From the NCBI RefSeq assembly GCF_024713975.1, contig NC_091113.1:15016501-15080500 (forward strand): DNA of 64,000 nt, read 5' to 3'. Every line of letters starts with the position of its first letter. The first letter of the stretch is position 1. The position numbers and the translations under genes are program-made. The notes below the pieces were generated by a model. That model ran no database searches. It worked only from the letters and a program-made list of their open reading frames with translations, and was not told the DNA's origin. This DNA is from Paralichthys olivaceus. Lineage: Eukaryota > Chordata > Actinopteri > Pleuronectiformes > Paralichthyidae. Below are positions 6,400-63,522 of the stretch, piece by piece.

Positions 6400-17653
<11,254 letters not shown>

Positions 17654-22128: not shown

Positions 22129-22199
22129 CTTTTTGCTTTTGGCCAGCGGATGTAATTCATTGTGAAAGTGCATCACATCGGTTTTATACATTTCTTGTT

Positions 22200-27820: not shown

Positions 27821-30800
27821 ATGCCTGGGATGGTGGTGTTCGGTCGGCGGTGGGGGATCGCCAGTGACGACCTTGTCTTCCCCGGCTGCTTTGAAATATT
27901 CGTCCGCGTGCTTTGGTAGGTTGCTTAACCTCTTACGCGATGTTACAGCAGCAGTCCTACTTATAGGTTTAATAATGATGATGAAACTCATTGACTGACC
28001 TGTTGTCTTCATCTGCTGCTGCCTCTCCTCAGGTGGATTGGCACTGTGGTCCTCTACACCTACCACAGGGGCCACTTCGAATGTAATGGGAAAGGAGTCC
28101 TGCACACCTACCTGGTGGGACTGCTGGTTGTGCTCGGGCTCATCATCCTGTCATTATGGGCTATTGTCTATGTCAGTGCCCAAGGTAAATCAATTGTCTT
28201 CTACATTACGTCTTGTGAGCATAATGTTTAAAGGTGGTTAGACCTCAGTAATCCGTACTTTCACTTTATTTCGCCCACAGCATCAATAGTGTCCAAACTT
28301 GTTTAATCTGGGTTATGCAATCGAGGAAATTTGCAACCCAGTTCCTCTTTTACTACCTTGGAGAAAGTGGTGGGAGACGATTGCTCAAAGTTCACTATTT
28401 TGTTACGGACACACACTTGCACAAAATGTACAAGAGTGCCATTTGTCATATTTATGCAGCTGTAAACTTAAATGAAGGAAAGATCGAGTTCAGGTCAGTT
28501 GTTGTATAATAATATGTATATGTAAGTTATTGCATATTTTCCAGAGGTGAGTAAACAAACAGTTGTAGGTATCAGATATTGTTGGACGTTTTTTTAATTT
28601 TTGATGTATTGATTGTACCGTGTTACTTTCATGAGGCAGCTCCTTGTTGACTTAAGCCTTGATTCTGATTGGTGTTCTAACAGCACATCGATAAAATGAA
28701 TTTCAAGCAGTAATTTACACTGACGTCCTTTGCAACGTCACAATCTTCAGCTGCACTACAGCACACAAAACAGCCATCTGTCAGTGGTGCGAAGCACTTT
28801 GTTTCAGTGATATCTATGATCATTTCCCAGGAACCATCACAAACCCTGGCCTGCGCCGCTCTATCCCTGCCCTGGTGTACCTGCGAGCTCTGCTCTACAT
28901 TCCTGAGCTGGTGTGGGCATGTCTGGGAGCCGTTTGGGTTTCTGACGATAGCAAAGGCTGCGATCTTGCCACAGTGGGTTCTGTCATCGCAGCAGTGATT
29001 GCCAGGTGGGTTGTGATGCCATATTCGCATTTTAGAATTAGAAACAAGTGTGTGTGTGTTTTGAGACATCATCTTCCTTTCTTCATCACAACAGCTGGAT
29101 CATCCTGCTCTTTACGGTGGTTGGCGTGGTGTTTGTGTTTGACCCCCTGGGTAACCCCCGTCCTCAGCCCCCTGCCATGGAACCTCTGGGTGTACGAGAC
29201 ATGGAGAGCACCGAGGGCACCCAGTTCTTCTCCACAGCTCGCTCCATCGCCACCAAGGTGTGGGAGAACAGGCTGCGGCTCCTGTGCTGTTGTCTGCCGC
29301 AGGATGAAAGCAACCGAGCGGCGTTCTCCAGCATCTCCCAGCTCTTGAGCGGATTCTTCTCGGTAAGAGCTATCTTCACTTTTTAGGATGCAGCCTTTGA
29401 TAATATTGATCTACAAATTCCAGAAATCTCAATCTGCCTATTCCATGCATATTCCAAGAACCGTTCATGTAACCGGTTTCACACTTTACATTTGTATTGT
29501 TAAGGGCCCAAAGAGGCGTAGTATTGAATTTAGTGCCATTTGAACATGTGATACGTTAAATATTAATAAACTTTAAAAAAAAATGTGACCAGCGCTCTGT
29601 AGCACTGGAGGCCGGGACTCATGAATGTAAGTTTTTTATCACGACTACAGCACATTAACAACAACAGCAGTGACAACCGATTCTCCAATTCAGGGTTCTA
29701 CATGCTGAGATGAGTTTAACCGAACTTTGACAAAATAGGTGAACAGCTAAGGTGGTGCAGCTTCAGGGTTCTGTGGACTAAGTCCTGCAGCCGGTCTGTT
29801 CTCTCCATGGCTCAATTACTGCAGGTCACTTTAACACTTTCAGAAAGAAATCTGCAACCAGCATCACTGCCAAACAAACAGCTCATTCCAAACAGGCAGG
29901 TTTCCAACAGGCACTGCACTAGTAATATATAATACACAGAGAAAGACGAAATCAAATTGCATCGTTTGAATTGTAAAGTAACTGATAATGCCACAAAACT
30001 CATTATAATATGCTTTCTCTGTGTTTATTTGTGTGTGTGTGTGTGACAGGACACAGATCTGGTCCCCAGTGACATAGCAGCTGGTTTGGCTCTGCTGCAC
30101 CAGGAGCAGGATAAAATGGAGCAAAGCAGGGACCCAGACGAAATAGTGCCTCACAGTCCATCCTCTCCCATTGTAAGTACCAGAGCCCGTCAGTCATGTA
30201 GCTGCACTAGACATCTGACCTGGCATCAGTTCCTACTGTAACTTGTCTTTTATTGTTTTGAAGGGAGAAGACTTGGAGACAGAGTTGGAGAAAGCAGCTC
30301 ACTGTATGCAGTTTGCTGCAGCAGCCTATGGCTGGCCGCTGTACATTTTCTCCAACCCCCTCACTGGGCCCTGCAAACTCAGTGGAGACTGGTAAGATGA
30401 ACTCTTTCTGTCTGTGAGAGGAGCTGCCAGGTTAGATTAGTTAAACCCGCTTCATAATAATAATCTTATAGATAATGTTCATGTGACAGCAGATCATTTG
30501 GCAACTAAGTTCATTTCAGAGCCACAGACAAAAAAAACGTTTAAACTTTTTACACTCAATGCAACTTTTGCACATTAAATGTTGAACAGCCCAAGAATGA
30601 AATCATTCATTAAGTAAATTGTTATTACAGTTTATCTTTTTGTGTACTTTTTTCACATTTCAAATAGCTGTACACAGCAACAGAGGTGCATCATTGTTGA
30701 TCTCTTATTTTTCTCTTGTAGCCAGAGATAAAGGTTACTAAAGTCTCAGGATGGTAACTCACATGTGTGTATGTGCGTTACAGCTGTAGGAGTCATGCAG

Positions 30801-38096: not shown

Positions 38097-41000
38097 ATGG
38101 AGCTGGACGACGTGGTCCTCTACCAGGACGACTCGGGCAACTCTGCCATGATGTCCGAGCGGGTCTCCGGCTTGGCCAGCTCCATCTACCGCGAGTTCGA
38201 GCGCCTCATCGAGAGGTACGGCGAGGACGTGGTGAAGGAGCTGATGCCGCTGGTCGTCGCCGTGCTGGAGAACTTGGACTCGGTGTTCGCTGTCAACCAG
38301 GAGCACGAAGTGGAGCTGGAGCTGCTGAAGGAGGACAACGAGCAGCTGGTCACCCAGTACGAGCGAGAGAAGGCTCTGAGGAAACACGCCGAGGAGGTGG
38401 GTTCACCGACACAGCCGCCAAACTAACTCACAACCCCGGATTACAGATTATCAACCGTGTTGTGCACTTTGATTTGAAGCTTGGACGCGGAACTCCATTC
38501 CAAAATGTGGCAACCCACTTTGGAGCTGCTGATCTTCTCCATATCAAATCTCATTAACTGCGAATAAAGTATATTTTTTATAAATCTTAGAACTCATTCT
38601 TTAATTCGGCACACCTACACACCCCTCAAAGTACATAATGGTTGAGCAATTACAGTTTACAAACTGCTTACAAAGTATTTGTATGTCACATGGTGAATTG
38701 AGAGAGGGTAAACATTACGCGCTAAAATCCGTGGAAAGAATCACCGGTGGATGTGTTGGATGTGCTGTTTTACGACACTTTTACGTTTGTAATATAAAAA
38801 GTGATCACACATATGAACAATGCTGCAGAACAACCTGTACCACTGTGTTGGTCTGTGTGTCACCATGGATGCTGCTCTCTGGGAGCCACTGTGACAGTGA
38901 AGGCTGCTACACTGGTTGATTTCACACACCACTCCTAGTTAAGCATGTAATATCCCAACAGTGATTTGCAGTCAAGCCTCAGGTATTTGCAGAGCAGTCA
39001 CCGATTTGGTTTTGAAGCAGTGGCTTTGTGTCACTCCCCAACTAATACAACACGTTAGACTTTAGGCTGATCGCTGGAGCAAGGATCCTATTATTGTCAT
39101 TGCGCAGAGCACAACAAGATTATTTTCAACAGTCCAGGTAGTGCATTCACACAACAAGCAATGTTTACATGAAACACAGGCAAAATATCAATTCTCTAAT
39201 ATACTTGGAAGGAATATTTGTGACTGAACAATAACTAGATAAAGACCCCCCCACAAAAATACTTATTTTGATTCACAAAATCCAGAATCACTGTCCAGAT
39301 GTCTCAGAAACGTGGAATAAAATGAATTTTTCACAATGTGAAAAAACTCCTGGATCTTCCCCCTGATCTGGATTTTCACCATAATTTAATGGGTTTGTTC
39401 CCTGACCCATAACACACCCTTCCTACTTTATTGTAATGCTATGGTTTTGTGCGTTTCTCGCTTAATTCCTCGTGACTGTCCTGTAGTCTGTGTGCTGTCT
39501 CTTGCTACATCCTCCTCACAAAGAGATCTGACATAAGTTTTGAATTCACAGACAATAAGCATTTGTAGAATCTGTTGCAAGAAGTGCACAATTTTTTTCT
39601 ATGCTGGTCTATCAGGACAAACATAACTCTCAGCTGTGCTCCTGTAAATACATGTCATCATGTTTCCCTCTCGCCCTCAGACTAACAACACCTATTAGCA
39701 TAGAGTAATGAGTTCCCATCATATCCAAATATGTAAGAAGATCTCACTTACTGTACTGTAACAAAAACTTACACACTAACAATACTATGGTGCATGATCA
39801 TACAAGTGATAAAGAGATTGCTTGCAATGTGTCTCAGGAATCATTAAAGTTAAACATTTTTTTTGTTAATTTACAAATAGATAGCAAGCAAAAGACAATA
39901 AAACCTTAAACCATGAATGTTGAACCACAGATTTAAATCAAGGGAAGTTAGAAAGAAAATGGCGTCTCTCTTAATGCATATTTAAAATGTATTATTATTA
40001 TATTTCTTAAAATATATGTAGCTGTTTATTAAGTGTCATTATCTCCCCTTGAGAGAACTCAGAAATGAAGTGAGAGCAGTCTGTTGGTTAGTGAACCAAC
40101 AGTGTGTACTTTCCATCCAGGTGGTGATAGAGTCTGATGTATCTGCACATAACTGTAAAAAGGAAATTAAGAAATCTGAGTATTAATTGCTTCATAATGT
40201 TTTAATATGGCTTAAACTTTATCAGATATTTGCCCTTTGCTCTTCGGTGACTGCTGCTGTAGCCTCAATGCTTAGTCACCCTCGCAAAAATCTTTGGATC
40301 ACTGTTGACATGTGTTATGTTCATGCAGTAAGACCTTGAATATATGTTTGGGTCAGGGTTTATTTTCAGCTCAATTCAGACTTTTTGAGAAATATGTTCC
40401 CTGAAAAATAGGTCACCAAATAGGTTTCAGAAAAAAGATATTAAGCCTTACTGTTAATAAAACCAAAATTCCAAAATGCATGTCTCAATGAATTTTAGTT
40501 GTGATTTTGTGATTTCAAAGCTGTAACACACTTCTTCTCTTAATCCTCCCTGGTCCTCATGTTAGGGCATTATACAAACAAGCAGCCCCTCACTCAGCCA
40601 TCTGTACTGCAAGGGGTTTGCGCTTAATCAGCCTTATTATTTTACCAGCCTTCTTACGCTTCTAATCCCAGCAAATCAGTGGTGGCCAACGTGGTTTAGA
40701 CTGGAAACAGGATTAACATATCACAGAACAAGATAAATCAAACAAGTAGCTAAATATCAGGATTTGGACATCACAGCCGGATATATTCATGTGCTGTTGT
40801 AGTTTTCCAGTTGTTGATATTCGATTTGATAGTTACATGTTGAAAGACAAGCACAACAGGTCACACAGCAGTGTGTTAAGTCATGTTGTAACATGTTGAC
40901 ACGGCTTTTACATAGACCAGTACATGTGGGATTTTCCATTGGTATGTTATGGGCTCATCAGTCTTTCCCCCTTTGGCTCCTGTGTGTTAAATACCTCAGT

Positions 41001-44000: not shown

Positions 44001-47000
44001 CTTTGTCTGCTGCGCCACACCTCATCTTAATGCCCTGGAGATACTTGTATTGTTGTGAATATGTCTGCTGCATCTCCTGCTGCATTTTTCACATATGAAA
44101 GGCAAACTCCGGAGAAAGTCTGCAGCTAATCATGTTGACATTCCCTGGAGTTTATGTCTGAAAACAGCTTTACAGTTATTACAGTCATTCCCTCCCCCCG
44201 TGAGCCCACTGCTATGTTCATGCTCTTAGTAGATTTAGATTGGAAATGCTGCTTTAATACCGCACTTCTTAAGATGCTCCCAACAAACTTGTGTGTTATT
44301 TGTTAGCAGTTGATAAAGAGAACATTCAAAGACGATTAATGGCAAAATGACCTCCACTGATATAATTTCCAAAGGGAGAGGAAAAAAAACATCTCATCCC
44401 CTCAAAGAGTGGATTGTGCTAAAAATAAAAATGGAGAAAATCAAAAACAGGCTTGGTTTTTAGGGACAGTTCACAAAGGCATCTTGAAGAAACACCTTTT
44501 GTTAGACACATCTAATCACTGTGCCTTGCGTATGAGCACTTGAAAGAGGGCCCTCAGGTGATCCTCATCTCCCTGTAGATGACTTCTATACCCTGCCCTG
44601 GGCCCGACCACATGGCCTCTTGTCCACATGAGTACCCACATCACAAGACTGCATGTTCACAGGCATAAAAACTCTGCCTGTTGTCTGACGTGACTCAGCT
44701 GATTAGCAGGAGTTAAAAGATGGTCTCCTAAAAACACAAATCAACCTAGAGATCAACATAGATACTTTTATTAACATTGGTGTCCACCTTGGGTTTTAGT
44801 GATTTTCTAACACTTATTTGCTATGTAATGTGTTCTAACTTAACTTGTTGTCAAGCTGCCTTAACTCTGCTCCACTGAGTGGGTGGGGTTGATGACAGAG
44901 CCCGTGGTAATATTTTCTAATGCTTTCTTTTGGGCAACTGAAAATATGAAGTTAACTATCATAGAAAACCAGAAAATATTCACATTAAAAAGGGAAACTG
45001 TATTGAAATTCCAGCAGTAAGGCTAATGATAATGTCGGATCAGTATCTGTGCTGATAATGACTGATAACTGCTGATAATTGAGCAAAAATCTTAAGAAAT
45101 CTGCCATGATGTTGAATATTAATTGGCTAGACTAAGATGGTGAACATGGTAAACATTAATCAGAATGTTAGCATTAGCATGATAATCAAGAAAATCAGTC
45201 AGCCAAATTAAACACTAATAAAAAAAAAAGTGGTTTCACCCCAGCTCACTTTTTAAAACTTAATATTATATATAAATATCAACACTAAATAAACATGTTA
45301 AAGTCATTTAAGTCTTTGGAATGTTGCATATCCACTATTTATTTACTGTATCCAATTGAGAAGAGTTTTATAACATGTTCCTTCTCTATTGAGTGCCTTC
45401 CAGCAAAACTCTTATTTCCTTCACTTAATCTTGGTATTTGACCCACTTTCCAGAGTTTCTTCTGAACGTATCTAATCACACAGAGTAAATTGATATCAGG
45501 GAGCGGTGGTTGACCCAGTATTAAATGGATTAGGTTTGGCCAGCATGGTGGGTTAGTGGCCCTGAGACAGTTTAGCAAACTGAGACTCTTTTGACTCTGT
45601 CCCAGTTTATGAATATTAGTCTCATCATTCTAATGATTTTCTCCTTGTTTGTTCTTAATCAAATTTTTTCAGCCTTAAAAACAAAGTTCAGCAGAAACCC
45701 TGAAGTAATGGTGGGTAGAACAACCTTGACACTGATATCAACAGTAACTAACTTGCCCATCTGAGTGTGTCTTTCTCCACTCAGACACATTGTAGGCTGT
45801 AGCCTTTTCTTTGTGAGAAAGCTGGTGCTGTGCACCTGTTGTGTGGAGAGGTTAGATGACTTTAACAATGGCCAGAAGACAGATGCTGTGATACTTTGGT
45901 TTTCACTGGTATCAGCACTGTTAGCATTAGCAGATCTTTATCATATACACACACTCAAAACATTTGGCCTGCAAGCACTCATTCCAGTCTTAACTCTTAA
46001 CATTGATATTTCCACGCACATACATGCATGTGTGTTATTTCTGCCTCCTGTTGCTGCCAATAACAAATCAACTTAACGCTGTGTCCTGTCGTCATCACCT
46101 GTGTGGCCTGCAAGTCTGATGTCCGTGTGGTGTCAGTTCGTGGGTAGTAGTGTTAAGTCTTAGTTCGAATGGAGAAAATGAATGAATCAGTTCATTTAGT
46201 TGCAGCTGTAAAGGTATGACTACCAGCATCACCAACTTCAGGCGCAGTACTTGACTAGTTCAAATGTGCCAAAGGAACGTCCTTGTCGTTCAATCATGAT
46301 ATCACCCGAGGTGAAGACTGCAGCAATCCTGTGAGCCACTTTCACTTCTTTTTATTCTTCAATTGTTAAAATTCAGTCTCAGCTCCTGCCAATTGGTCCG
46401 AAACGTCTTTTAAACTGCAAGATCCAAACCATAGTTAATATAGACTAAATTTTGGACTGGATCGTAGTCTGACACACTTGGATTGGACAAAATTGAAAAA
46501 TATAAAGGTCTGGACAACACAAGGTAGGTGTGAAATCATTCTGAGTTCTCAGTGCGTCTATAGTAATGTGTGTGTGTTTCCCTTTTGTCTGCAGAGGTAC
46601 ATCACCCTCGAAGATTCTCAGGACGGTGAGAAGAAAGACCTCCAGCGTCAACTGGTGACATTGGAGTCTCACACACGTCAACTCGAGCTAAAGGCTAAAA
46701 ATTATGCAGAACACAGTAAGTCCATCACATTGTGTGTCCGTGACAAGTTTTACTGTACTGACTCTACACAGACCACATACCCTGTGAGAATCACTGACAG
46801 TTTGCAGGTCTTGTGACTGTTTGTTAGCCTGATGTGCCAGAGGGCAGATAGACTTCCATGTCCCTACTGAATAAAATCCATTAGTAACACACTATGAGTG
46901 TTTGCCTGCCAAATCTGCTAAATGAGCTGTACTCGGGAAGACCGAAAGAAAGGGTCCGGGAAACAAGAGAAATTTAGGGTGCAAAGGATTTTCCTGTAGT

Positions 47001-50000
47001 TTTACGAAAAACATTTTATAAGTAGGATATTTCAAGGTGATACAAATTGCTTAATTGATAAAAGATACATGTACAAGAGTTTTTCCAAAGAAGGAGAGAA
47101 TGTAAATGTAAAGGACGGTTCAATCTTCCTTGAGTCAGAGTGTCGCCCTAACAACCCTCATGATTTGTGCATGACTGCACTGTTGACATTGTGTGACTGC
47201 TTTTTTGTTCCACTGCAGAGTCGTAACATACGCCTTGGTCATGCTAGCGGAAAACTTGAGACGCCCAGTGAATGTCATTTTATTTCTATGTGACACTTTG
47301 CCCTTTTTTCTTTTTGAGACTTTCCTTTGTCTGTAATTATGGTTAAGGACTGAAATGATGGCAGTGACTTCCTAAGCTGTTTGATCATGTCAGTGGGACA
47401 CACACATACACACAAGTAAGACACAACAAGCCTTTTTAACTATTTGTATGTTAATTTTTTTTTTAGACTAATATAGTAATTTTATAATTTTATTTATATA
47501 GCACATATTTTGAAAAGTTTTGAACATGGGTCTGAAGATTTTACCGGTTACTTAACCTCTAAAATATCCGACATGCAATGTACTGAAAAATAACACCCGT
47601 CAATTATCGCACACACGTAAACAGTAATTAAGCAAATTCAGTTTCATATTATGAAAAACCTTGACTATAAAATCTTCATTGTAGATAAACTTCGTAGGAT
47701 GAACACAGTTTTTTAACTTAACTCTGCACCATAGACTGTTTTTTAAAAAAGCTTATAGATGAGATTTGTTAGAAGCTAGAGAGATAGTTAGATGAATTAT
47801 GCATGAAGATGTTACTTGGTTTCAACCCGGCTTGGGATTCCCCAGCTCAACCGAATGCGTTTATCTCAGAGCGGTAGACATGAGAACTCTCCAGGTCAAC
47901 AGATTTCACAGCCTGAGTACACTCTGTAACAAACTCCAATGACCATAAATACTCTTTATCGACTGACAGTACTGTTCAGTGTTGAATCAGAGTGGCTACT
48001 CCCAAACAATCACTTGTTGACTTCAAATTATGGTTTAAATCTTAACCACTGCCTCCAGAACCAGCACTTCACCAACGCCATATTTTTCAGATGAATATTC
48101 AGGTGTTTGAATGAGGGACTTTTCCTCCAGCATCACTTCCTTTTATGCTTCACATCTCTGTGTCTGACCTGATATATTTCTGCTCCACTCTTTAACCACA
48201 AGTTCCTCTATCAGCCCTCTCAAAGCCACGCTAAATCACAGTTAACAGCATTCCATGCAGCAGCTTGCAGAAATGTTGTTCCTCACGTAGGTGTTGAATT
48301 CTTCTATATTCGGTATGTGAGCCTTGTTACTGACTCAAACTTGTGTTGAAAGACATTCATCTAATAGTAGTGTAGATGTAGTCTAAGAATGGCAGGTTGT
48401 GTGAATTAGCTGCATTAACTGTCAGCAGACGTGGACCACAGAGAATGTTTTGTGAGAAGACACTTCATGGCTGGTATGTAATTAGGACTCTCTCTTGACT
48501 CCTAATAACCAACAGCACCTGAGAGACACAAACACTTGAATCAGTAAGTTACAGTTTATTGTCAGGTCTCTGTCTAATACACTGTTTTATTCTTATTGAT
48601 AATAAACATGGAAATGTACTGTTTGAAACTTGTATTGTTGACACTAATATCTAAAGTAGTATAAAGAACACAGCGTCAACCTATTGCTCCTCTTGACATT
48701 TCTTTAGTAGTCTACAAAAAGCCACTAAAAGAGATTTGTCACAATGCCAATATACAATTTAAAATGAGTAATCCACTTTTGATTTTTAAAGGAATATTTA
48801 AATGATTTTTATTTGTGACAAGTGTGAAATTATTTCTCCTTTGTTAGCTTAATCTGATTAATGTTTTGGTGATTAATAATGTGCAGCTCTTTGATAACAG
48901 TATAGGCAGGCATATATTAGCATTTGCTTCTGTCCAAACCTTTTCATTCAATATATAATGTAAAGACTCTTTAGACTTTGTTTTCCATATTGTTTATACT
49001 TTTTGTACAATATATGATGATGTTTGAATAATCATTTTTCAAAATCACTTCTGCTGTTGATGTGTTAAATAATAAGGCATGTCTCAACTCATAGATGACT
49101 TGTCTGATTGACAGGTGAAATAATCCTGTCCAGGCTTCATTTGTTAATCAGGGTGAGCGTAGGGTGGTGTTGATGCACAGTGGCCCTCTTGTGGCTCTGA
49201 GATGTCATTACAGCAAGTCATTCCTTTATCGCAACAAAAATGTTTTTCAAAGAATGTGTCAAACAATTTTGTTGATTCATATTGTGTTTTCAGAATCTGG
49301 GTGAAATCTTGAAGCTTTTCTGATCGTGTGAACATGTGAGTTATTGATTTCTTTCTCATCCAGTTAGCAGACTCGATGAAAGAGAAGCAGAGATCAAAAA
49401 GGAATATAACACCCTTCATCAGAGACACACTGAGGTGAGTTGTTTGTTTGAGTGAGGGGCATCTGTACACTGCAGAAAAGAAACAAACTAAAGCTGAAGA
49501 CAAATCAACGATCATGTACTATCATTCATGTAATATCCCCAGATATTCCTTTTCATGATCGAAGGAAGGTACAAAAGTCTCAATTCCTGAAGGTTAATAG
49601 ACAGACGGGGAGATGTTGACGCACTATTTCATAAATCTGTGCTGTGACACAACATAATGGCTTGAGATGAATTTACCTGTGCACAGCTCACTGTGGTAAC
49701 TTAAAGGTAGGGTTTGTAATTTGTTTCTGAAACACTGCACACAGCAACAGATCTTTTTTACAATACAGGCCCTCTTGAATTTTAGATCAAAGAAAACAAA
49801 ATGAAAACTATTATAGAAGATAGAGGAAAGACAGATTTGGAGGTGCAGTAATAGAATGATGATTGAATAGACTGGAGAAGCAGGTGTGGTTATAACTATA
49901 AAAATATGAATTCTCTGAACAATATTTATGTTATCTGCTGGGCCTTTGGTCCACCCCTGCTTGTTAATTCATTTTGCATCACTAACAGATGCTTCGGTGT

Positions 50001-53000
50001 CCAAACACACAGGCTCCAGCCGTCAACTGCTTATCTCAGTAATGTTGAATAGAGTCAAATAAAAGCTTTTAACACGTTTGTGAATCTGACTGTCACAGAT
50101 GTGTCTGAACAGCATTTACTTAGTCAGACAGTGTTAAGATGTTAAGGGTTCTCGTGACCATTTATAATCAAACATGCTGTATTCTGCTAACAACATAGTA
50201 GAACAGTATTAACATTAGATACCAATATAATATATGAAAGATGTATATAACTTCTCTTCTGTATACTATTTAGTGTGTAATTGCTGATTCATTGACTTGG
50301 TGTTTGTCCTTTACCTCCTAGATGATCCACAGCTACATGGAGCACCTGGAGCGGACGAAACACCAGCATGCTGTGACACCAGCAGAGCCCACAGATACAG
50401 GCACAGTCACATCAACCAGGTCACGGTGAGACGACACTTCAAACTGTGTTAATTCATAACCACCGTACGCACACAAACAGAAGTTGCATAGAAGTCTCTG
50501 CAGCGTTCAGGTGAGGGGTGGAGCAGGAGGCAGGACAAACTGTACTAATTATTTTTGTTTTCATTGACATTGGGTGTCAGCTCTTATCATCACAAGCTTT
50601 CGAATCTCGTTGTCTTTATTTTATATTTGTTTTTTTCAGTTTTGTTTCTGTTGCCTGTTACAAACATTATCAACACGCCCACTTGCTTAAAGACTATTCA
50701 CGTACACGTAAACAGATTGTCTACTCGCAGTTGGTTTCTTAGTTACATAAAATAAAAAACAATGACTAAAAGTAAGATGAGGGAATTATTTTCTTATACT
50801 GTAAATTAGGTTCAACTTTTTTGCCTTCACCACTGGTTGTCAAGTCATGACTGATGAGAATCAACCAGGAGGCAAATGCGGGTAACTGCATCATTGTTTG
50901 CTAACGTCTCAGATTTCAAACTGAAACAGTGCCAACAGTGTTTCCAAATGTCTCCATTTTATTAGCCAATAGCCTGGATACAAGGAGTAAAAGTAGTAGT
51001 GTGGATGTAGCCTCACACTATACCCCAGTAAGCCGTTATATCATTTTGAACCCAATTCCTGAAACTCTGTTGATTAAAACTGTATTTAGCTCAATCTTTC
51101 ACTACACTCACCCTTTCATAAGAAGAATATAAAGTTCAGTATAAAATGGGTTTCAAGACTTAACGAGAAGAATACTTGCAGTATTTTAGGTTTTCAGGTT
51201 GGCAACTCTGAAGTGAATCAGTTTTGATGAAACTTTATCCCCATTCACAAATATCCTCCCACTGGCAAGAAAAAGAAAGATGCCAGACCCGTGTCCGCAG
51301 AGACACTGAATGAATGCAAGGAAACTGAATTAACTGGAAGGCAGCATCATTTAAATGCAAAAACAGAACTGCATATAATGTAAAACCGTGTGATTGTCCG
51401 TAAAGTTGAGCGTGGCTCGAGTGTTTTTAAACGAATTGTCATGATTGCAGACCATACGAAAGATAGACTGTGATTGAAGACAGCAGGTTGAAGATACACT
51501 GGGAAGCTGTGGGGCAGATAGAGGATGTTGTAGAGGTTGTGTAAACAGAGGCAGTAGTTTGGCTGCTGTCGGCTGCTGTCGGACTAATCTGCTTTGATGG
51601 GATGATGTGATTTGTGCTTCAATGCTCATTTGCAGAGCAGATTATGAATGAGCACCATGCAGCGGAGAGCCAGGAGGTCAGCAGAACCCCCACTTCATAT
51701 AAACATGAATTCCCTTTGTCATTAGGCCGGAAGTATTTCTTTTATTTTGACAACGTGGTTAACACTGATGTACAATTCCCCATTTTTTTGTTTGTTTATC
51801 TCATTTGCTTGCTCGCAATGATTGGAATGTCTCTGTGTGGTAGTTTTTTCACAACAATACAGATATTAGCACGCTGTAATAAAACTACAAACACGACCAA
51901 CATGGAACTGATAACTGATCATCTACAAACACCATGTTCAGAGGTAATCTTAGTACACTCGGCTAGGCTGTGGGAAAGACTACCTTCTGTCATCATCTCC
52001 TGTAGTTCAAGAGATATAGTGACATTTTAATGGTTTATTCTTTATGAGGCTACTTCACCTTATCTTTATGGGAAAGTGCAAGTTATTCCTGGACTGATAT
52101 TCTGTCTCAAACACCATTTATTATGGTCTTAAAAGGCTTAAATTTAACTTGTTGAAACCTACAGAAAGATTTTTGATTGATCGTGAAACAATAATCGGTC
52201 CGAGAATTTTGGCTATTAGGTGGTCCTTCATGTGTGGCACAAGATGGATTTGCCTTAAAAATGTGTCCACGTGCTATACCACCCCCAAATCTGGTCTAAG
52301 TGATCAGATCTCAAGATGAGTTAAAAACGCATTTGGGTGTGTTCACGTCTGTACTTAAAGCTGAACACATGTGATCAGATAACTCAGGTCGGATGTTAAT
52401 ACCAGGTCTGAGTCTGATGCCTCATTAGCAACACTTTCTTTTTACCACCAAAATGAATCACAACTAAACAATTTAAAATGCCATGATATTAAAATGCTAA
52501 CACCCTAAATTATAATGGTATAGATGTTAACCATCAGTAAGCATTGTTACTGTTAGCATGTTAGCAAGCTTATGTTAGTTTAGTGCAAGAGATTTTTTAC
52601 ATAGGTGTGTATTTTAACGAACATTTATTAAACATGATCTCAATTCAGCTCATTGTGCAACTTGGCTGCACCAATGACAAAGTAGGTTTGGCCGTAATGA
52701 TTCATTTTTAACAGACAGAAACCACTTCTCATTGTGACATGTGCAAAATAGTTTTCTTACATCCACCATATGTACTGTTGTAGAATTTAATAATACTTTT
52801 TTCTTCATATTATGCCGACCCAATCTCTCTCTCTCACACTTCCTATCAGTCTCCCTGTTTTGCAGCCAATCGGCTGTAGCCTGAGAGGAGGCATATGGAA
52901 CGAGCTGCCTCAGCATCCAAAAGAGGGCGAGGGAGATGAGGAGAGAGAGAGAGAGAGAGAGAGTGAGGGAGGGGTGGTGGGTTCTACTTGCAGTGAGAGA

Positions 53001-54000
53001 GGGCAAGCGTCAGAGTGTTCTAGACTGCACAGCGGCAGCCGTGTCGCATTTTGGCAGAGAATAGGAAGAGTGAAGGAAAAGAGGAGCCGTTGTTACTCTC
53101 ATCATCTCTCTGTGGATGTGCTGCTGTGTGCTGCTACTGCCCTGCTTTCATCAATCAGTGCTGCTGCTGAAGCCACCAGGATTACTGTAGTTGGGGTCTG
53201 CTGCCAGCGGTTGCTCTGCATTTGGCCTGCGCTCACTCTCTGTCGGCTTCACTTCTGAGCTGCAGCATACACTGCTGCCTACCAGCGACAAGGGTACTTC
53301 TGACCTCATCACATAGGTGTGGTGGTTACGGTCCAACCAAAAACAGCAGAGAGAATTTGGCGCTGTGACCCCTCCTCCCAACCAATCTGCTTTCATCACC
53401 TGTGCCCCCAAACCCCCTGGACCTCGGGGAGGCACTGGAACGTGACCTGGGGGGGCCATGAGCCCCGGGTGCATGCTGCTGTTTGTTTTTGGCTTTGTAG
53501 GGGGAGCGGTGGTCATCAACTCTGCCGTACTGGTCTCTCTGTCAGTGCTGCTGCTGGTTCACTACTCTGTCTCTACCGGCGGCTTACCTGCCCTGCCCTC
53601 CTTACCCTCCTTACCCAGACCCAACAGGTACAACTAGTATGTGTTTGTGTGATTTTATTTTACTGCGCAAGTGTGTGAAAGAGATGCACTTTCATTTATT
53701 TTGTCTTACTTTGTAGCCGCTGACAATTTGTAGCCATGTAGCCATTTGCCATGTGGGTGTGATATAGTCAGGCAGTATGAGACCGCACACTAAAAGTAGG
53801 TCAAGAGAGAGAGGTATTATTGGCAGAGTCAAATCTAGACCCCACACTGCTTGTGATGTTTTTAGTCCTCCAAAGTTTATCGCCATTTATGATTACTCAT
53901 AAATAAAACATCTTTTCAATACTGAGTGTGTGATTGTACCTCACCAGTCGGTTTAAAAAAACAAAAGGGAGCTGGTCACCATCAGTGCCCTGCATGTGAC

Positions 54001-54036
<36 letters not shown>

Positions 54037-56480
54037 ATGGTGGTGTGTCCATTGTTTCTTTTGGGCCTGATGCTTTTCATCAATGCCTGCCGGCTGCTGT
54101 TTTCACTGTGGCAGCCATTCTTCCCCTTGCGCTGTACAATATGTTTTTCATACCTAGTCAGAGGAGTGAGAATAGCTGCTGGTGTGTACTCGCTCTGCTG
54201 CAGTGTGGGGTCCAGTGATTTTGTGTTGCTGCTCTTTTCATGGGTCTTGTTGGTCTTTTGGTGTTTAGAGTCGCCAGGGTTTGAATTTAACCACATCCAT
54301 GCAAATGTGACACTGTAGGTGAGTTTTAATAGAATAGTTGTGAGAGAAGGCAGTACAGCATAATTAGAAGTGCTGCCTTTGACACAAAAGACATAAACTA
54401 ATTAATACACCAACAACAAATAGATAACCAATAAATACTTTAAAATAGAAGAGTGGACCTATGTGTCATTGCATTGAATGGGTATTGTACTTGGAGTCAC
54501 TGCGAATGCTAACATCCTCATCATCATCAAAGTAATGACCTGGAGATGGTAACAGGTGTTTGTTTAGTCCCACTGATGTCTTCCTTCCTCTGTGTGATGT
54601 CCTTCAGCCAACACTGAATCCATCTCCGTTCCAGAGGCAGATACAAATTTAATTGTTACTGGCTGAGCTAATAACTGGGAGGTAATGGAGCTTATGAGGC
54701 AAGCAGCTTTATTCCTCCTCACACCACTTCAGTGCCAAACGGTCTGAATGGAATCTTTGCTACAACACCTTTCTGTGAAGAGTGTCGTCACACAGCTTGT
54801 TTGACTGGTTACCTTATGCTGACCTTCCATTGCCCTGGAACATGGCATACGGAAGGATCCACCTGTTGGAGCATTTGTTCTTGGGGATTTGAAGGAGTCC
54901 TCATAATGGGACAGTCTAGTCACGCAGCTGTGACGCATTTAATCTTCAGATGCAGCCAACAAAGGATGCAGCTCCTGAATTGAGACCCTGCTTTTAATGT
55001 AGAATATCTTGTCAGAAGTATGTTACCTAACTGAATTTTTTAAGTAGTGTGTCCAACAAAGCTCTCACTATGTGTGTAACAACTCAGAAAAGAATAGCTG
55101 TGATACAGAAGTCAACAATCCTGTATCACAGTGCCTGAAGATGTACCTGATCCCACCTCAAAAAGGTATAACTGAAAGATGTGAAGTGGCTCAAAAAGGA
55201 ATGTCTGAAGGGGGCGACCTGATATCTTAAATTTGATTGGGTATACACCCATAGTATACACCACATGGACACAGTTTGACCTCCCAAACACTCTTTTTCA
55301 CGTATTTCCTGTCCCTGTCCAATAAAATGGAATTGTAGAGGTAGTTGCACCCCTACATCCCACATTTAAGTCTAATCTACCAAGTGTAACTTACTCTGAC
55401 ATTCAGACATGATAGAGTGTGAAATGTGTCCATCTCCCAAACATTTGTTTTTTGCTCTCTTTCAAAATTGTCTCGTCTTTGTGTGTGACCCTTCACTCTG
55501 TTTGTTTCGGTCTCCAGGAAAGAGCGTCCAATCTCCATGGGCCTATTCCAACTTCCTGGGACTGAAGGTATGACCCCTGACCCCCAGAGGGTACCTGTGG
55601 ACACCCCGTCTGACCCGTGGAGATTCAACAACCTCAGCCACCCACGGTCTAACACTAGCCTAAAGGTATGACACACAGAAAACCGGAGTTTTAAAAAGAA
55701 CAGCTTCTCTTTATATCATCAGTTATAAATTTTAAAGTTACTGTCAGAAGTTGGCGTGTAGAACTTCCCACGGATCAGAAGGGTGACATCATCCCTAGTT
55801 CACTTAAAAGAGGTTGTGTAAACAAAATACAAACACCAAAGAAAGAGTACATTTCTTTTCAGAGAGAAAGGATTGTTCTGTGTGTCCAGAATTTTAAAGT
55901 AGTGTGTGTGTGTGTTGGGTGGCTTGGAGCCCAGAAGGCTGGGGAAGTGGTACCATTCTGGGGCCTGGCTTAACCTCGTGGGAGGGTGGAAAGGACAGAG
56001 TCTCTTCACTTTGTTGCTGTAGGAAACCATGCTGCAAGCAAGGCTCCATCATGAATATTAATGACCACGCTTATACAATTTTAATTTATTTGATTTGTTA
56101 CACTAGGACAGGGTCAGGTGAATATTGCAATGAGTGGGACGGTGGTTTGACTTTTGGTAAAGTATCATTTAAACCAAGTTTTTTTACTTATTTATATTAT
56201 TTGATAATTGGCAGTCAAGGTGATTGATAGTTGTTAGACTCCTTTTGAGGACCTCACTAATAGTTCTGGAGTAAAGTAAAGTTGCTATAGTGTTGCAGTG
56301 CAAAGCATCCTTCTCCCTCAGTGCCTACACTCTCACAAACACACAATTTTACTAGACACCCTCTGTTTGGACACACAGCAGTGTCTTTGTGTTTTTTCCT
56401 CTGACTTGACATTTTTCAAAGATTTACAGTTGGTGAGATCCACCCTCTCACCATGTGGACGAGTGTGTGTTTGTGCGTGC

Positions 56481-56517
<37 letters not shown>

Positions 56518-59500
56518 CGTGCGTGCTTTTGTGTGTTTTGGAGGGGGATAGGGAAGGGATGGAATCAAAAGAATAGCAATGGAGGGAAGCTTCCCCCCCA
56601 TTGGCTGCTCAGTGCTACTATAGCAACAACAGGGTGACAGCAGCATGACAGCAGACAAAAGAGGTGAAAGGAAATACACCCATCAGTGCAGAGAGGAGAC
56701 TAGCTTGGCTCAGAGAGGGAACAGAGAATACATCTGTATGGTGGCCGAGACACCTCAATCAAGCGCGGAAAATACGAATGCAAAAGCCACAACACAACTA
56801 CGAAAGGCACACATTGGAAACACAACCACAATGAAGTTAGCAACAGTGGAAGTTGATTACTGTAAAGTAAAAAACTGTTCAAGCCAGTTGCAGCTTAAAT
56901 GTAATGACTATGTATTTGAGTTGTCATGATATAGATGCTTGGAATTAATGTACAAGATGATCTTTTTATTCATTGCTTTTAGGTTTTTCGTTAATACCCC
57001 TAACAGAAGATCCGAGTTTAGTTATCCTGACTGATATTTATCAGCTACTGTGCTATATATATTAGACTGAAGCCACTGGTATTAGACCAAAATAATACAA
57101 GGTTGAAGAATCTGCATGCCACTCAGGACTGATTAGAGTTGGTAAAACCCTGATGTATGATTTGTTGTGTAAAATGATTTTTCTTTCAGCTTGACTGCCA
57201 GAGGAAGCAATAGATACTGCTCATTTCTTAGTTGACTTGTGGAAAAAAAAAAGCCTGTAAATCTATCCCACTTAGTTATTGTAGGTTTTAAGCTTTTAAG
57301 CTGCCTTTTAGTTTTATTATTTTCTCCATACACATTCTACAGCACATCCACTTGCTTTGATTTATGTTTTCTCATAAAAAAAAACATTAATCAGCAAGGT
57401 CTTTAATATCCATCATTTTGAGGAGCAGTTCTCCTCAATCAGAATGGAAGGTGAAAGCACGCAGAAGAAATCGTCCAATGAGGAGGCTGATCATGACCAG
57501 GTAGATCTGTCTCACATGAAGAACTATAACCCTGGTTTTACCAAACTAACCCAGTTTGTGCTCCATTGACTGCAGTTGTGGTGAAGTGTGATTGTATTCA
57601 GTGATGCTAACACACTGGCGCTGGCCTTGCCGCGTATCTCAGTGAAACTGCATGTGGCTGATATGCCATCGTCATGTCTTCATCTGGCCTCAAATTCATA
57701 TTTTAACAGTTTTAAGTTGGGTATGAGTTGGGTCAGTGGCTCAAAGCGTCTTAAGACAGTTGGTCTGAAAACTGAAATCAAATGATTCACATTGCCAGAA
57801 TGAGTATGACTTCAAGAGGCTGCAACATCCTTCCTTCCTTCTTATCTGCGTCACAGAGTAAGTTTGGCTTAGTTACTAGTTACTCTCTTGGTTACGTGGC
57901 ATCACTGAGCACTGAACATCGATGATCCTGGACACCAAGCACTAAAGCTGGTTATCATTTGGCCCAGTTATTTATACAGTGACATAGTGAAAACAAGCAG
58001 ACAACAAATACCCTTACACTTATTCTCAGGTCATATTTTTTTCATGTCCGTGCTGAGCATTGTCTTGAAATTATTCTTCTGTGCTTGAAAAAATTCACTT
58101 CCATGCTACATATGCATATATGCCAATACTTTAAACTTCCTTGACACACAAATACAGTAATTACTGTATTCACTTAGCATGTTTGATGGCTTATGCATGA
58201 GAAATAACTTACACAAAGGAAAAGTGTATCTCTAGTAAGAAATACAAGTAAAATAATAAAATGAAAATACATTAAAAAAGAATGGGGGGACCAGAGCTAT
58301 GGCATTACCCATATTAAAAGTGAGAACTTTCAATAAACATTTCTGTTTGCTATTAAGATAAAAAAAAAATCAAGTCCCTGTCAATCACATTATCAAGGAG
58401 TATCCTTAATATATAAAGTTCAAGGTTGTGGTAATATTTCTAATATTTTCTTTTTTGAGTTTAATTTGTGAATGATGTGATTTTTATTTATTTATTTCAA
58501 TATATCTTTCAACTTAATAATGTTTCCTTTGCTGTGTCATTGTGTGAAGTGTGTGTGTGTGTGTGTGTAGTATACTGTAAGCTGCACATAACCATAGAGC
58601 TTGAAGAGAGGGACATTTTCAATGTTACATAAATAAATGTGTAATGTTGGCATCATGACGATCATAGTTCCATGTTCTTATTTCCTGTGTTATTTCCATT
58701 GACTCTTCTTCCTCCCCTCCTTTCCTTCATCTCAAGGATGAAATGACCAGTGTGAATCGCAGAGGCTCCAAAACCAGTTCTCCAAACAACCAATCAAATG
58801 TTTCCAAAAGTGGGGCTCCAGTTTCTTCTCAAGCTGGAGAATCTTCTCAGGACGGTACCTCTATATCAAATACCCCCACATCCTCATGCACACTATCTCC
58901 TCATGATGGCGCGTCCACCGGCACAAGTTCCATGTCCAGTCACATGGGTGGATCAGCTTCTGCTACACCTCTGTCTACCACTGCTTCAGATGTGGCCATG
59001 GAGTCTGTGGACACTCCTCTGCAGGAACAGGAGGCTTCAGACGGGCTCAACAGGAACCTGGACAGGAGCAGCGGAAAGCCGGAGAGTAATAAGAACATTG
59101 CAGCGGTGCAGGAAAAGCAGCAGGGTCAGAGTGGACATGACGGCCAGGAGTCTGCTTCTACTTCTCTCGAAGGTGAAGGTCAATACTGCAACACCTTGAA
59201 TATCACATTATGTAATCAAACATTTTTCTACCAGTATTTTACTTTTGTCCATATATTTGAAGCTAAGATATTCCTTTCTTCTGGTTTTACTAGACGGAGC
59301 AGACAACCTGGAGAAGTCTGAGGTGCAGGCTATCATAGAATCCACTCCTGAACTGGACATGGATCTTGATGGCTGCATAGGAACAAGGTGCGTGACCGGT
59401 GGTTAGAGATTTTGTTACTGAAGGAATAAGGCGGGTATTCCTCTCAACCCTAAACTTATGAAAATGTTAAATGCAATATACTGGTATTAATGTTAACTGA

Positions 59501-62500
59501 TATTTAAAAATATTTCAATATTGATACTATATTAAACACATATTGTGTAAATAATCCAGTGCCTCTTAAATCATATACATTCCTGTCCATGGTGATGCTT
59601 TTACTGGCTCACACTGCAACGTAGTAGGTATGAGTTGTTACTATTACTATTCTCTTTGAATTAGAACCTTAAGTTTTATTTACAACCCTTGAAAATGAAA
59701 GTCCAGCTGCAGAAATGGATATATCCGCTAAATGACATGTAATGTAATGTAATATTGTCAGAAATTATTTTAGCCACGTGACAACCCTTATAGCCATAAT
59801 AAATAAAATTATCACAGTGCAATATCACATCTCTTCATCATAGTAACACTGTCCTCTGTCTTGCCCCCTCATGTGTCCACCCTCATGTGTCCATGCAGCA
59901 CACCAGTTAAAGGCGGCATAGAGAATCTAGCATTCGACCGGAACACTGACTCTCTGTTTGAGGAGCTGTCGTCGGCAGGAAACGACCTGATAGGAGACAT
60001 GGACGAAGGCGCGGACCTGCTGGGTAAGACACTCAAATCTCTCACAATTTACCATGTGGCCACTTTTACAAACGATTCTCTCCCCCTGTCGTTTTCTCTT
60101 AATCTACTTTTCTTTGGCTGTCGGGCTTTACCATCCTTGCAGATGAGTTTTCTGGTGTGTATCAGTTAATTCTCTCCAGATTCCCTAGCTCCTTGTGTTT
60201 GTTTCCATTGTGACCTTTTTTATGGGTAGAACATATTATTTTGGTGTGAAACAGTGTTACATTTAGGCTAGATAGTTAGGCTAGCAGTTGAAACTATTTA
60301 ACTCACAGGAAAAGTGAACCATGTTTTATTGAGTCTCATAAACCTCCTTCTCATTTGCATCGTCCATTGCGTGACTCTCAGATTTCAACTTTCTAGGTAA
60401 GAATGAAATATGTTCGTGTGTAGAATAGAAATAGGAAACACTTCTTCACAGATGTAATTTTCAATGATATTATTTTATTTTCCCCTTTCACAAGGCAGCT
60501 TGTGATTCTTTGTTTGTGTTCACATTATGGCTGATCCTTTTTAGGTATGGGTCGGGAAGTTGAACATCTTATCCATGAGAACACCCAGCTGCTGGAGACC
60601 AAGTCAGTGCTTGTTATAATTTTTTTTTTAACCATCTCTGTCTTGTTTATATATGTGGAGAGATAATGACATAAAAAACTGGATGAAAAAGCTCCTTATC
60701 ATTTTTCTATTCCATGTTCTACTATTTAGACTGTATAGGCTTGTTATTGTGGGTCATTAATGACATATTATCACAAAACTGAAGCGTGAGACCCTGAAAC
60801 ATTAAGTAAGTTGTCAGTTTCATAATGCACCTGCAGTTAAGATTGTGGAGCTGTTATTTTCCTGATCTTATTTGAAAATGTGCACTTCAGAGCACTGATT
60901 GGTACAAATGATTAAAATGTAATATTATATGACCTGCCGTTGTCTCTACACTTCTCAAAGAAATATTGACATAATTTTGTCCTTCTCCTGTTGCACTTAA
61001 TTCTAAAGGTTGATGCAGACAATGAGCTAAATTTTACATCTTCAGGAGGACTAATTAATTAATCTGCTTACCTGCTTCATCTCTAACAATCAGGACAGTG
61101 CTGCCACCTTCTGTTTAATGAAGATACGACATGAGAAAACATGCTATCATTCACGATTTCATTCATATATGTGTGTTCAGAAACGCTTTGAATGTGGTGA
61201 AAAATGACCTGATCGCTCGCCTGGATGAACTGTCCTGTGAGAAGGAGGTTCTTCGGGGAGAGCTGGATGCTGTCACTCAGGCCAAATCTGTACTTGAGGA
61301 GAAGAACAAAGAATTAGAGGAAGAACTGAAGAAGTGAGTTACTTTGGACTTTGGAACACAATAAACAAATCTATTTATCTACTGCTTTAAATATTAGATA
61401 TACTTTATAGACATGGACGCTGAAAATATTGAAGCTACGTACTCTCTTGCAGGTTTCGAGCAGAGATGGAGGATGCCAAACAGAAAGTCAAGATTGAAAA
61501 TGAGGATGATGTGAGTCTTTTATCTTTCCAGTGTCAGTTTGGGTATGAATCACAACATTATAGCATATTGAGGTAAAACAATTCTTGCAAGTATTTTTAA
61601 ACACAACCTAATAAACTCCATAACAGCCAAGTCCTGTCACATTTACCTGAAACGCTTCATAGCATGTGCCATGTATTGTCTACACACATGTACTCTCACA
61701 GATGGTTTTGAACAGTGGTTCACTGGTGTCATGCTTGTGTTGTGCCTACAGAGTGATGTGCCTACAGCGCAGAGGAAGCGCTTCACCAGGGTGGAGATGG
61801 CCAGGGTCCTGATGGAGAGGAACCAGTACAAGGAGAGACTGATGGAGCTGCAGGAGGCGGTCAGATGGACAGAGATGATAAGGTAAGACAGAAGAAACCA
61901 AGGAAAGTAGTGGACAACATGAAGTCATGGCAAATTAATGATCACTTTTATGTACTAACTGTTGTAATCAGATTTTTTTTTATTGAAAGTCTAATTTTGT
62001 AAATTATAGCACACTTGCAATAACAATAATAGAAATATGAGGATCTGGATGCATTGAGAAGTTCTGTGCATTTGAATTGCCGATGGGTGAACTGTAGTCG
62101 AATCGTGAGGCTAGTGAAGAGTCACAGCTCTAATTCGAAGTGAATTTTCTTTCCCAGGGCGTCGAAGGAGAATCCAGCTCTTCCAGAGAAGAAGAAATCC
62201 AGCCTCTGGCAGTTGTAAGCTCCTCTTTTCTCTTCTTTTGTTCTGGTAACTGAACCTCAGTGTGATCACTTTGTTATTTAAGTGTTTCACTGTTCACTTT
62301 TCTTTTTGTATTCCATGTTGATTGGTTGTTCTCCAGGATGTAGGTAAATCTCTGACACATTAACATGTGTCTTATCTTGACTGCTTCTGACAACAAACTT
62401 GTAACAGAGGAGAGCCAGTCAGGAAACAGTGGCTCTGATCTCAGATCTGAGCTGCCACAGTAGTCTTTTGATTCTTTTATTTGCTGTCTGATTTATATGT

Positions 62501-63522
62501 TGGGACATTGCACTAGTTTGCTGACTGAGGAACTGAATCTGGTAAAGACTGATATTCTGTCATTTGATCCAGGCTCTCCTTTGTTGAGTTTAACCAGGAA
62601 TGACTTTGGTTTGGTTTGAAGGACTGTTATCTGGGGGCAGATATTTTGGCTAAGAGGTTGCTTTGCTTATAAGAGAAACAAATTCTGATAAATCCACTGT
62701 CTCCTCTGCCCTGTTTCTGTGTGTCCCTCTATATTCTGCCTGGCATTGTGGCGTCTGTGCACAGGAGGTGTGTTGGCAGGGTTACTTTAGTGATGGGAGA
62801 GAAGGCAGAGAAATGGGGTTAAACTTAACACTTGAGAAATTAATATTATGTATAGGTTTCAGATGAACACCATCTGTGTCTTAGTATTTAATAGGATTTT
62901 GGTAAATCTGTTGCTTCTACTAAAACTGATAGATGCATCATTATATTTCACAGTAGAGTTAGAAGAAAATGAAGAGTGTGGTTTTTTTGCCAGGCCATTT
63001 TTGCTGTTTGTCGTTCACTAACATCCTAGTCAGTGCACATTATTAACCTCGCACACCCTGCTCTCCAATAGTCTGAGTGGACATCAGCTCTGATGCTTTG
63101 CATTGTGGGCGACAGGTCAATGACTTCATGAGTAGTTACTATCAAAATGAATATTGGTTACCTGCTACCTGTATGCAAGCTGGCATGGTGTATTAGCATG
63201 GGGAAGGTCTTTTTACCCTTAAATGTTGATCCCTGCCTTTTGCTGCTGGAGCTACTGCTTTTGTCCACCCCTCTATATGTTTGTTTGTGTGCTTCTTCTT
63301 TTTTGTCTTGTCCTCCCCACTTCCCCGCCCTTACACCTCCAGTTTCAGCCGTTTGTTCAGCTCGTCGGGCGGAGCAGCCAAGAAGCCGGCGACGGATGCG
63401 GCAGTGAACGTCAAGTACAACGCGCCCACCTCTCAGATTCAGCCATCCGTCAAGAAGAGGAGCACCACCCTGCAGCAGCTGCCAAGTGACAAGAGCAAAG
63501 CTTTTGATTTTCTCAATGAGGA
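38097..63522 (+). CDS. spag9: Spag9 / JIP4 scaffold protein, 5' part
   Basis: JNK-interacting scaffold that links vesicles and lysosomes to kinesin-1 and dynein. Exons: 38097-38396, 46595-46715, 49364-49434, 50322-50425, 55518-55665, 58737-59172, 59294-59387, 59899-60023, 60545-60602, 61181-61333, 61453-61510, 61752-61882, 62158-62214 and 63343-63522. They join in frame to about 678 residues and are cut by the window edge (human about 1320). Residues 1-100 form the RH1 domain ([37 protein letters not shown]), followed by coiled coil. [13 protein letters not shown] is the JNK-binding segment, then comes a Ser/Thr-rich linker. [17 protein letters not shown] begins the second leucine zipper, and [20 protein letters not shown] is RH2, the Rab-binding domain. 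[18 protein letters not shown] follows. The C-terminal WD40-like region lies outside. Teleosts carry two spag9 copies; which one this is cannot be told. Confidence 0.96.
39345..39470 (-). repeat. Reverse copy of the AAGGAGGTTATG-type repeat
   Basis: Plus-strand CTCCTGGATCTTCCCCCTGATC, ATTTAATGGGTTTGTTCCC and GACCCATAACACACCCTTCC are reverse complements of landmarks in the 36425 and 1795 copies. Diverged and non-coding. Confidence 0.45.
43208..43228. repeat. (GT)n microsatellite
   Basis: Short GT tract in spag9 intron 1, followed by further imperfect GT-rich sequence to about 43280. Confidence 0.8.
52800..53457 (+). promoter_or_regulatory. spag9: Presumed internal promoter/5'UTR of the membrane-anchored spag9 isoform
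   Basis: The 650 bp before the alternative start codon are GC-richer than the surrounding intron. They carry a (GA)n tract at 52939-52966 and a CTGCTG-rich stretch near 53115-53170, and lead without an evident acceptor-to-ATG intron into the exon. The promoter assignment is inferred from the presence of the alternative first coding exon; no TATA box was identified. Confidence 0.45.
52939..52966. repeat. (GA)n tract
   Basis: Pure GA dinucleotide run; GAGA-type purine tracts are common in promoters, and this one lies about 0.5 kb before the alternative spag9 start codon. Confidence 0.85.
53458..53627 (+). CDS. spag9: Alternative first coding exon of spag9 (membrane-anchor N-terminus)
   Basis: Starts [16 protein letters not shown], then [19 protein letters not shown]: about 57 residues with one long hydrophobic stretch (roughly 6-37) suited to a signal anchor. 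The exon ends CCCAACAG|GTACAA in phase 2, exactly the phase of exon 4. It therefore joins the KERPISMGL exon at 55518 to give NRKERP. By recollection, mammalian SPAG9 has an isoform starting with almost the same residues, which supports a real, conserved exon. The resulting protein lacks RH1 and the first coiled coil but keeps the JNK-binding segment, second zipper and RH2. Confidence 0.9.
54004..54033. repeat. (CT)n microsatellite
   Basis: Fifteen uninterrupted CT units 0.4 kb after the alternative first exon of spag9, within the intron. Confidence 0.9.
56464..56524. repeat. (GT)n microsatellite with GCGT variants
   Basis: GT repeat in spag9 intron 5. The block directly after it (56537-56587) is nearly identical to 22590-22641. 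Confidence 0.92.
57423..57500 (+). CDS. spag9: Candidate spag9 cassette exon (78 nt)
   Basis: Between exon 5 (ends phase 0) and the exon at 58737 (starts phase 0), an AG at 57421-57422 and a GTAGAT donor at 57501 bracket 26 open codons. The part [19 protein letters not shown] is acidic and Ser-rich. Human SPAG9 has a short acidic segment (containing KAVEQE) at this point before DELSDV. Multiple alternative AGs lie close by. This is a candidate, not an established exon. Confidence 0.45.
58550..58569. repeat. (GT)n microsatellite
   Basis: Short GT tract in the intron 170 bp upstream of the spag9 Ser/Thr-rich exon. Confidence 0.8.
60143..60154 (+). CDS. spag9: Candidate 12-nt microexon of spag9
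   Basis: CCATCCTTGCAG precedes ATGAGTTTTCTG, followed by donor GTGTGT. Inserted between the exons ending CTGCTGG and beginning GTATGGG, it keeps phase 1 and adds four residues, changing LLGMG to LLDEFSGMG. The paralogue JIP3 has LLGEFSV at the same place by recollection, which is strong support for a conserved alternative microexon. Confidence 0.65.
60382..60396 (+). CDS. spag9: Candidate 15-nt microexon of spag9
   Basis: GTGACTCTCAG precedes ATTTCAACTTTCTAG, followed by the strong donor GTAAGAAT. It is phase compatible on both sides and adds DFNFL just before GMGREVE. JIP3 carries DDFFGMGKE here by recollection. A TGC lies 13 nt before the acceptor AG, as in SRRM4-type neural microexons. 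It can be used alone or with the 12-nt exon without frame shift. Confidence 0.7.
   Translation: MSTF

Follow-up and report, generated by a model that had tools for sequence, protein, structure and literature searches.

Known isoforms of JIP4/SPAG9

The SPAG9 scaffold proteins JLP, JIP4 (1142 aa) and SPAG9 (766 aa) are described in the available text of PMC5341948 as splice variants, the latter two without the N-terminal epitope of JLP, and short JIP4/SPAG9 forms with N-termini that differ from that of JLP have already been published (PMC5341948, PMC2211295, available portions). The long SPAG9 isoform, JLP, opens with the RH1-LZI part at exon 1 and has no hydrophobic N-terminus, unlike the short form, and the two have exons 5 onward in common. 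The available sections of PMC6831827 assign the binding of kinesin heavy chain and dynein light intermediate chain to RH1-LZI, that of dynactin p150 and kinesin light chain to LZII, and the recruitment of Rabs to RH2. JIP4 has been characterised as assembling a p38 module, not a JNK module (Kelkar 2005, as cited in the accessible part of PMC5341948), and its recruitment to lysosomes and macropinosomes is ascribed, in the portions available, to partners such as TMEM55B and Phafin2 (PMC8325962, PMC5691037).

The spag9 gene in the window

The window, the 64-kb stretch of DNA analysed here, lies on contig C21 of an assembly in which the whole-genome searches covered 25 contigs and 588 Mb. It carries exons 1 to 14 of spag9 on the forward strand, and the rest of the gene lies outside, up to about position 70110 on the window's numbering. 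Among the matches listed, the closest database proteins to this gene were from percomorph fish. The features relevant to the present analysis are as follows.

38097..38396, + strand: spag9 exon 1, the main first exon, which starts the long RH1-bearing isoform (translation, splice phase)
46595..46715, + strand: spag9 exon 2, long isoform only (ag/gt sites, phase)
49364..49434, + strand: spag9 exon 3, long isoform only (ag/gt sites, phase)
50322..50425, + strand: spag9 exon 4, ending in phase 2 (ag/gt sites, phase)
52860..53457, + strand: putative alternative promoter/5' UTR, G+C-rich and CpG-poor, with CCAAT at 52866 and 53382 (composition)
53443..53445, + strand: in-frame TGA upstream of the E1b ATG (sequence)
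53458..53627, + strand: E1b, putative alternative first coding exon, predicted hydrophobic helix at residues 3-39 (frame, homology, model)
55518..55665, + strand: spag9 exon 5, with the acceptor shared by exon 4 and E1b, giving the basic flank RKER
58737..63522, + strand: spag9 exons 6 to 14, shared by the two isoforms, with LZII by Pfam

A hydrophobic exon opened by an ATG, which we call E1b, lies within intron 4 at 53458..53627 (+) and contains 56 codons plus 2 bases. Its donor GT is at 53628 and is in phase 2, as is the donor of exon 4, so either exon can be joined in frame to exon 5 (55518), and the junction of E1b with exon 5 restores the Arg codon of RKERP. The coordinates, the ATG at 53458, the donor, the acceptor before 55518 and the phase shared with exon 4 are all as originally predicted. 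When both strands of the window were scanned for ATG frames no shorter than 35 aa that had a 19-residue Kyte-Doolittle mean of at least 2.3 and a phase-2 AG/GT donor, E1b was the sole passing place, the reverse strand gave none, and the passing frame contained two in-frame ATGs (53458 and 53473). A protein search with the E1b start returned as best match an annotated fish JIP4 (E = 1.4e-36, 96% identity over residues 1-75), and we regard this match as decisive for E1b being more than a chance reading frame. The exon is real, and the observation on which the original prediction was built is confirmed. We consider it likely that E1b serves spag9 as an alternative first coding exon, from which a short JIP4/SPAG9-type isoform starts, and that its N-terminus is an uncleaved signal-anchor helix with the scaffold in the cytosol.

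The domain content of the two products was compared using Pfam. RH1 was detected in the spliced long N-terminus (E 1.3e-18) and not in the short N-terminal part, where JIP_LZII is kept, in agreement with the expectation of a short product without RH1. Judging by the UniRef names of relatives, an RH2-type segment probably lies in exons 6-14. The claim that RH1 binds motors and Rabs holds for motors, but Rabs are assigned to RH2, which is downstream and common to both isoforms (PMC6831827, available sections). Similarly, the anchored form was expected to keep the JNK-binding and RH2 segments; RH2 would indeed be kept, but JNK binding is functionally doubtful given the p38 module (PMC5341948, accessible part). 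As a whole, the earlier interpretation of this locus is partly supported.

Distribution of E1b-type N-termini

The short E1b isoform is not new, and judging from database proteins it is already annotated across many jawed vertebrates. The best 120 of 128 matches to the E1b N-terminus were JIP4/SPAG9-like, as were the best 120 of 127 matches to a bamboo shark N-terminus. Most of the matches listed carry the name JIP4 or SPAG9; some others are entered as hypothetical, unnamed or RH2-domain proteins, and one catfish entry is named JIP3. All organisms named among them are jawed vertebrates (two JIP4-like entries carry no organism), and E1b-type N-termini occur in teleosts, sturgeon, sharks, a ray, frogs, lizards, turtles, crocodilians, birds and mammals. 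Lamprey, hagfish and invertebrate entries were absent among the matches listed, for which candidates were limited to 0.55-1.75x the query length. Two sequence clusters, named for a marmot and a crow, hold 292 and 231 sequences, respectively. Over the first 75 residues, identity to JIP4/SPAG9 proteins reaches 96% in fish and is 73-75% in mammals.

Mammalian SPAG9 short isoforms have an N-terminus unlike that of long JLP, and, as predicted, begin almost identically to the fish product and continue into RKERP as it does. The tail of the fish E1b is proline- and leucine-rich, whereas mammals have GVPALTQNLPRIL there. The published JIP4 and SPAG9 cDNAs presumably begin with these E1b-type residues. 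In a Sceloporus protein, E1b is separated from the common exon by a further short stretch, SPSPMPTVVRTLN, which may represent an additional small exon. The peptide MSPGCMLL was not found by a literature text search, and scans of viral and prokaryote contigs gave no relative. The only match from a sequence search of the PDB, to a vasopressin receptor chain (residues 39-71, E 0.05), was weak and was taken as chance.

For measures of conservation, 70 sequences were chosen from 121 proteins, about one for each species or gene copy, with that of the window among them, and 69 were counted; Myxocyprinus, which has a one-residue deletion, was not in the count, and a Sinocyclocheilus grahami protein with the same deletion was not among the 70. 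These two cypriniforms (S. grahami and Myxocyprinus asiaticus) lack I20 in an otherwise near-frozen helix, and the sequences are perhaps relaxed duplicate copies.

A predicted membrane anchor

The N-terminus encoded by E1b is likely to be a membrane anchor. Its best 19-mer has a Kyte-Doolittle value of 2.42, whereas no 19-mer of the long isoform, over exons 1-14, exceeds 1.48, and AlphaFold2 models E1b alone as one helix spanning residues 3-39, with mean pLDDT values of 93, 97, 97 and 87 for successive tens of residues 1-40. In a full-length AlphaFold2 model of a damselfish homologue (23 sequences), the N-terminus has a pLDDT of about 30 and no helix there, the overall mean being 42. In this fish, there are no charged residues before the helix, and R54, R57, K58 and R60 follow it; across the sample, a basic residue before the helix is seen as R4 in 4/69 sequences and as R5 in 4/69. 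Under the positive-inside rule a basic flank stays cytosolic, and the pattern of charges favours a topology in which the scaffold would be cytosolic and the N-terminus in the lumen or outside. In sequence and model, the predicted E1b product resembles type III (reverse signal-anchor) proteins, which have a short uncharged N-terminus, a long hydrophobic helix and a basic C-terminal flank.

The available text of PMC11773325 mentions a transmembrane feature of JIP4, and that of PMC5691037 repeats an earlier description of the protein as primarily cytosolic with a membrane-bound fraction. The cytosolic description counts against an anchor, yet antibodies that recognise all SPAG9 variants have been used (PMC5341948, accessible part). 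No test of an anchor appears in the available portions of these three papers or of PMC8588810, PMC8325962, PMC3327670, PMC2211295, PMC6831827, PMC8938451 and PMC11473802, and publication elsewhere is possible.

The helix might alternatively not span the membrane, and instead form a hairpin or monotopic segment in one leaflet (of the ER or lipid droplets) or serve as an oligomerising helix. Several features are consistent with this: glycines 12, 15 and 16 along with N21, S22, S27 and S29 sit inside the hydrophobic run and are invariant in 69/69 sequences, and the modelled helix, at 37 residues, exceeds what a bilayer needs. Summed Hessa values, calculated from central values without position terms, are borderline for segments of 19-23 residues (best +0.16 to +0.45 kcal/mol), which we attribute to the G, N and S residues, and reach -0.37 for 31 residues. 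However, AlphaFold2 gives a single continuous helix with no turn, and the charge asymmetry across the helix also speaks against a non-spanning arrangement, which we regard as rather unlikely.

A cleavable signal peptide, cut near S39/T40 and releasing a luminal or surface product, is improbable. The hydrophobic stretch does begin near residue 5, S37 (69/69) and S39 (68/69) fit the -3,-1 rule, and a luminal or surface product would suit the history of the protein as a 'sperm antigen'. Against cleavage, the hydrophobic run of about 30 residues is long for a signal-peptide core, this fish has no basic n-region and carries its basic residues after the helix instead, and the remainder of the protein is an adaptor, parts of which have cytosolic motors, Rabs and kinases as known binding partners. 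An uncleaved signal-anchor helix is the topology we prefer.

Conservation of the helix

The strong conservation of E1b from fish to mammals, on which the original prediction relied, was borne out and extends as far as sharks and a ray. Among the 20 bulky hydrophobic positions, 14 are invariant in the 69 sequences, and so are N21, S22, S27, S29, H35 and S37, together with the three glycines (12, 15 and 16). Over 153 pairs from 18 species, residues 1-40 have a mean pairwise identity of 0.931, which ranks first among 10 protein segments, one of which had only 3 usable pairs; for the same species, the values are 0.690 for E1b residues 41-56, 0.651 for exon 5 and 0.849 for LZII. All such figures are upper estimates, since the protein search favours similar sequences and those sharing exact words. 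By these segment means, E1b would rank as the most conserved part of the protein, but in a sliding-window scan of 23 sequences the E1b segment was outscored by 122 of the 1083 40-residue windows and by 64 of the 1093 30-residue windows. Its conservation along the protein is high but not top.

Substitutions in the core are mostly conservative (V/I, F/L, Y/F), and conservation drops after the helix while still inside E1b. A generic anchor would be expected to swap L, I, V and F freely, which the E1b helix mostly does not do, and the strictness of its conservation suggests a specific membrane role. Because it is stricter than usual for a generic anchor, the conservation could also be that of a DNA or RNA element (a promoter, enhancer or splicing signal) rather than of the peptide, but both the conservative nature of the core changes and the fall in conservation after the helix within the same exon make this highly improbable.

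Start exon or cassette

Immediately upstream of the E1b ATG, the in-frame codons are GCC, GGG, GGG and CCT, preceded by TGA at 53443, and the 12 bases between the TGA and the ATG contain no AG. A cassette carrying the ATG would for this reason be unreadable from exon 4, and the stop codon argues for a translation start at E1b. On this sequence evidence, an exon with its own start appears a much better reading than a cassette, although a non-coding exon further upstream is possible.

The region preceding E1b was examined for promoter features. Its G+C fraction is 0.559 (52860-53457), compared with 0.379 and 0.422 in the flanking intron, while its CpG observed/expected ratio (0.347) is not above the window mean of 0.406, and that of the main first exon region is 0.941. 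Four CCAAT pentamers occur within 52500-53460, of which that at 52866 fits the NF-Y consensus, and TATAWA is absent from both strands of the same interval. A promoter directly upstream of E1b is plausible; the original description of 0.6 kb of promoter-like sequence stands for the raised G+C but not for the CpG ratio or a TATA motif, and is weakly supported.

That E1b might be an in-frame cassette of the long isoform, producing an RH1 scaffold with an internal membrane segment, is hardly tenable: automatic gene models from Menidia, Xenentodon, Prochilodus, Lerista, Hippocampus and Pogonophryne do fuse RH1-type exons to E1b, and an AG at 53461-53462, within the first codons of E1b, would leave an open frame following exon 4, but no pyrimidine tract is present in the 20 bases preceding that AG (CGTGACCTGGGGGGGCCATG), any cassette containing the ATG is halted by the TGA, and the linking peptides vary widely among the six models, as in stitched predictions. 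These six models are probably stitched first exons.

Paralogues

Searched against the whole genome, the E1b peptide matched only itself. Exon 1 gave seven matches, comprising itself, two strong ones on contig C5 (89% and 79%) and four weak RH1-type matches (34-38%). The locus starting at C5:15722042 is nearer to spag9 than the other C5 locus in nearly every exon compared (for example, 85% versus 58% identity for exon 8, and 98% versus 88% for exon 12), and is most likely the spag9 ohnolog. It is compact, with exons 1 to 12 in about 12 kb, and its intron 4 (about 0.33 kb) contains no E1b-type exon.

The second locus, from C5:16582782, is most likely mapk8ip3 and lies 0.86 Mb from the probable ohnolog on the same contig. 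JIP3, the product of MAPK8IP3, is a scaffold of the same type, and most spag9 exon peptides were matched in order at this locus; unlike spag9, no E1b-like exon was found there. An E1b profile search of 50 kb and 60 kb of sequence at the two C5 paralogues gave a best E of 0.73, and the extent of mapk8ip3 intron 4 is uncertain, since exon 5 was matched only weakly (E 1.1). A 27-residue match in that intron (E 0.3) was rejected, as it lacks strong hydrophobicity and no profile hit was better than E 0.73. From these searches, E1b appears to have been retained by one ohnolog only and lost from the other.

At C13:8874649-8878155, two matches lie within 3.5 kb, a weak one of RH1 type (38%) and one of exon-12 type (65%); the locus is probably a RILP-family gene.

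A proposed role for the short isoform

In the scheme we propose, the hydrophobic E1b N-terminus would replace the RH1-LZI part (exons 1-4) and insert as a single uncleaved signal-anchor helix, so that the short N-terminus would be luminal or external and the whole scaffold (LZII, RH2 and beta-propeller) would stay in the cytosol. A pool of the scaffold would then be held permanently on a membrane without the motor contacts of RH1-LZI, by its own anchor and not by recruitment via TMEM55B, Phafin2 or similar partners. Since the helix is nearly invariant, it may, beyond being hydrophobic, also recognise a partner helix, a lipid or a compartment.

More tentatively, and with less confidence than we place in the anchor, jawed vertebrates may keep a constitutively membrane-integral JIP4, whose helix would be a sequence-specific module (N21, S22, S27, S29, H35 and glycines 12, 15 and 16) binding one partner helix or lipid. 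After the teleost duplication, just one of the spag9 copies would have kept this module, in the present fish at least, so that the copies may have divided membrane-anchored and cytosolic roles between them. If correct, a self-anchored isoform without RH1-LZI motor contacts would behave unlike partner-recruited JIP4, and reagents that do not separate the isoforms, a concern raised in the available text of PMC5341948, would blur the anchored and cytosolic forms. The present analysis adds how deeply and how strictly the exon is conserved, an in-frame stop in favour of a start at E1b, and the apparent loss from the ohnolog.

Other features in the window

Coding exons for coiled-coil protein occur at 16005-17650 (+) and seem to resemble CDR2L; Pfam reported nothing above its cut-offs for 16766-17650. 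Hydrophobic reading frames at about 27700-29350 (+) are reminiscent of the N-terminus of diacylglycerol lipase, and two of these frames gave no Pfam family above cut-off. Three tRNA genes were detected by ARAGORN and Rfam, at 22056-22129 (Arg-TCG), 22734-22805 (Met-CAT) and 26916-26987 (Gln-CTG, - strand).
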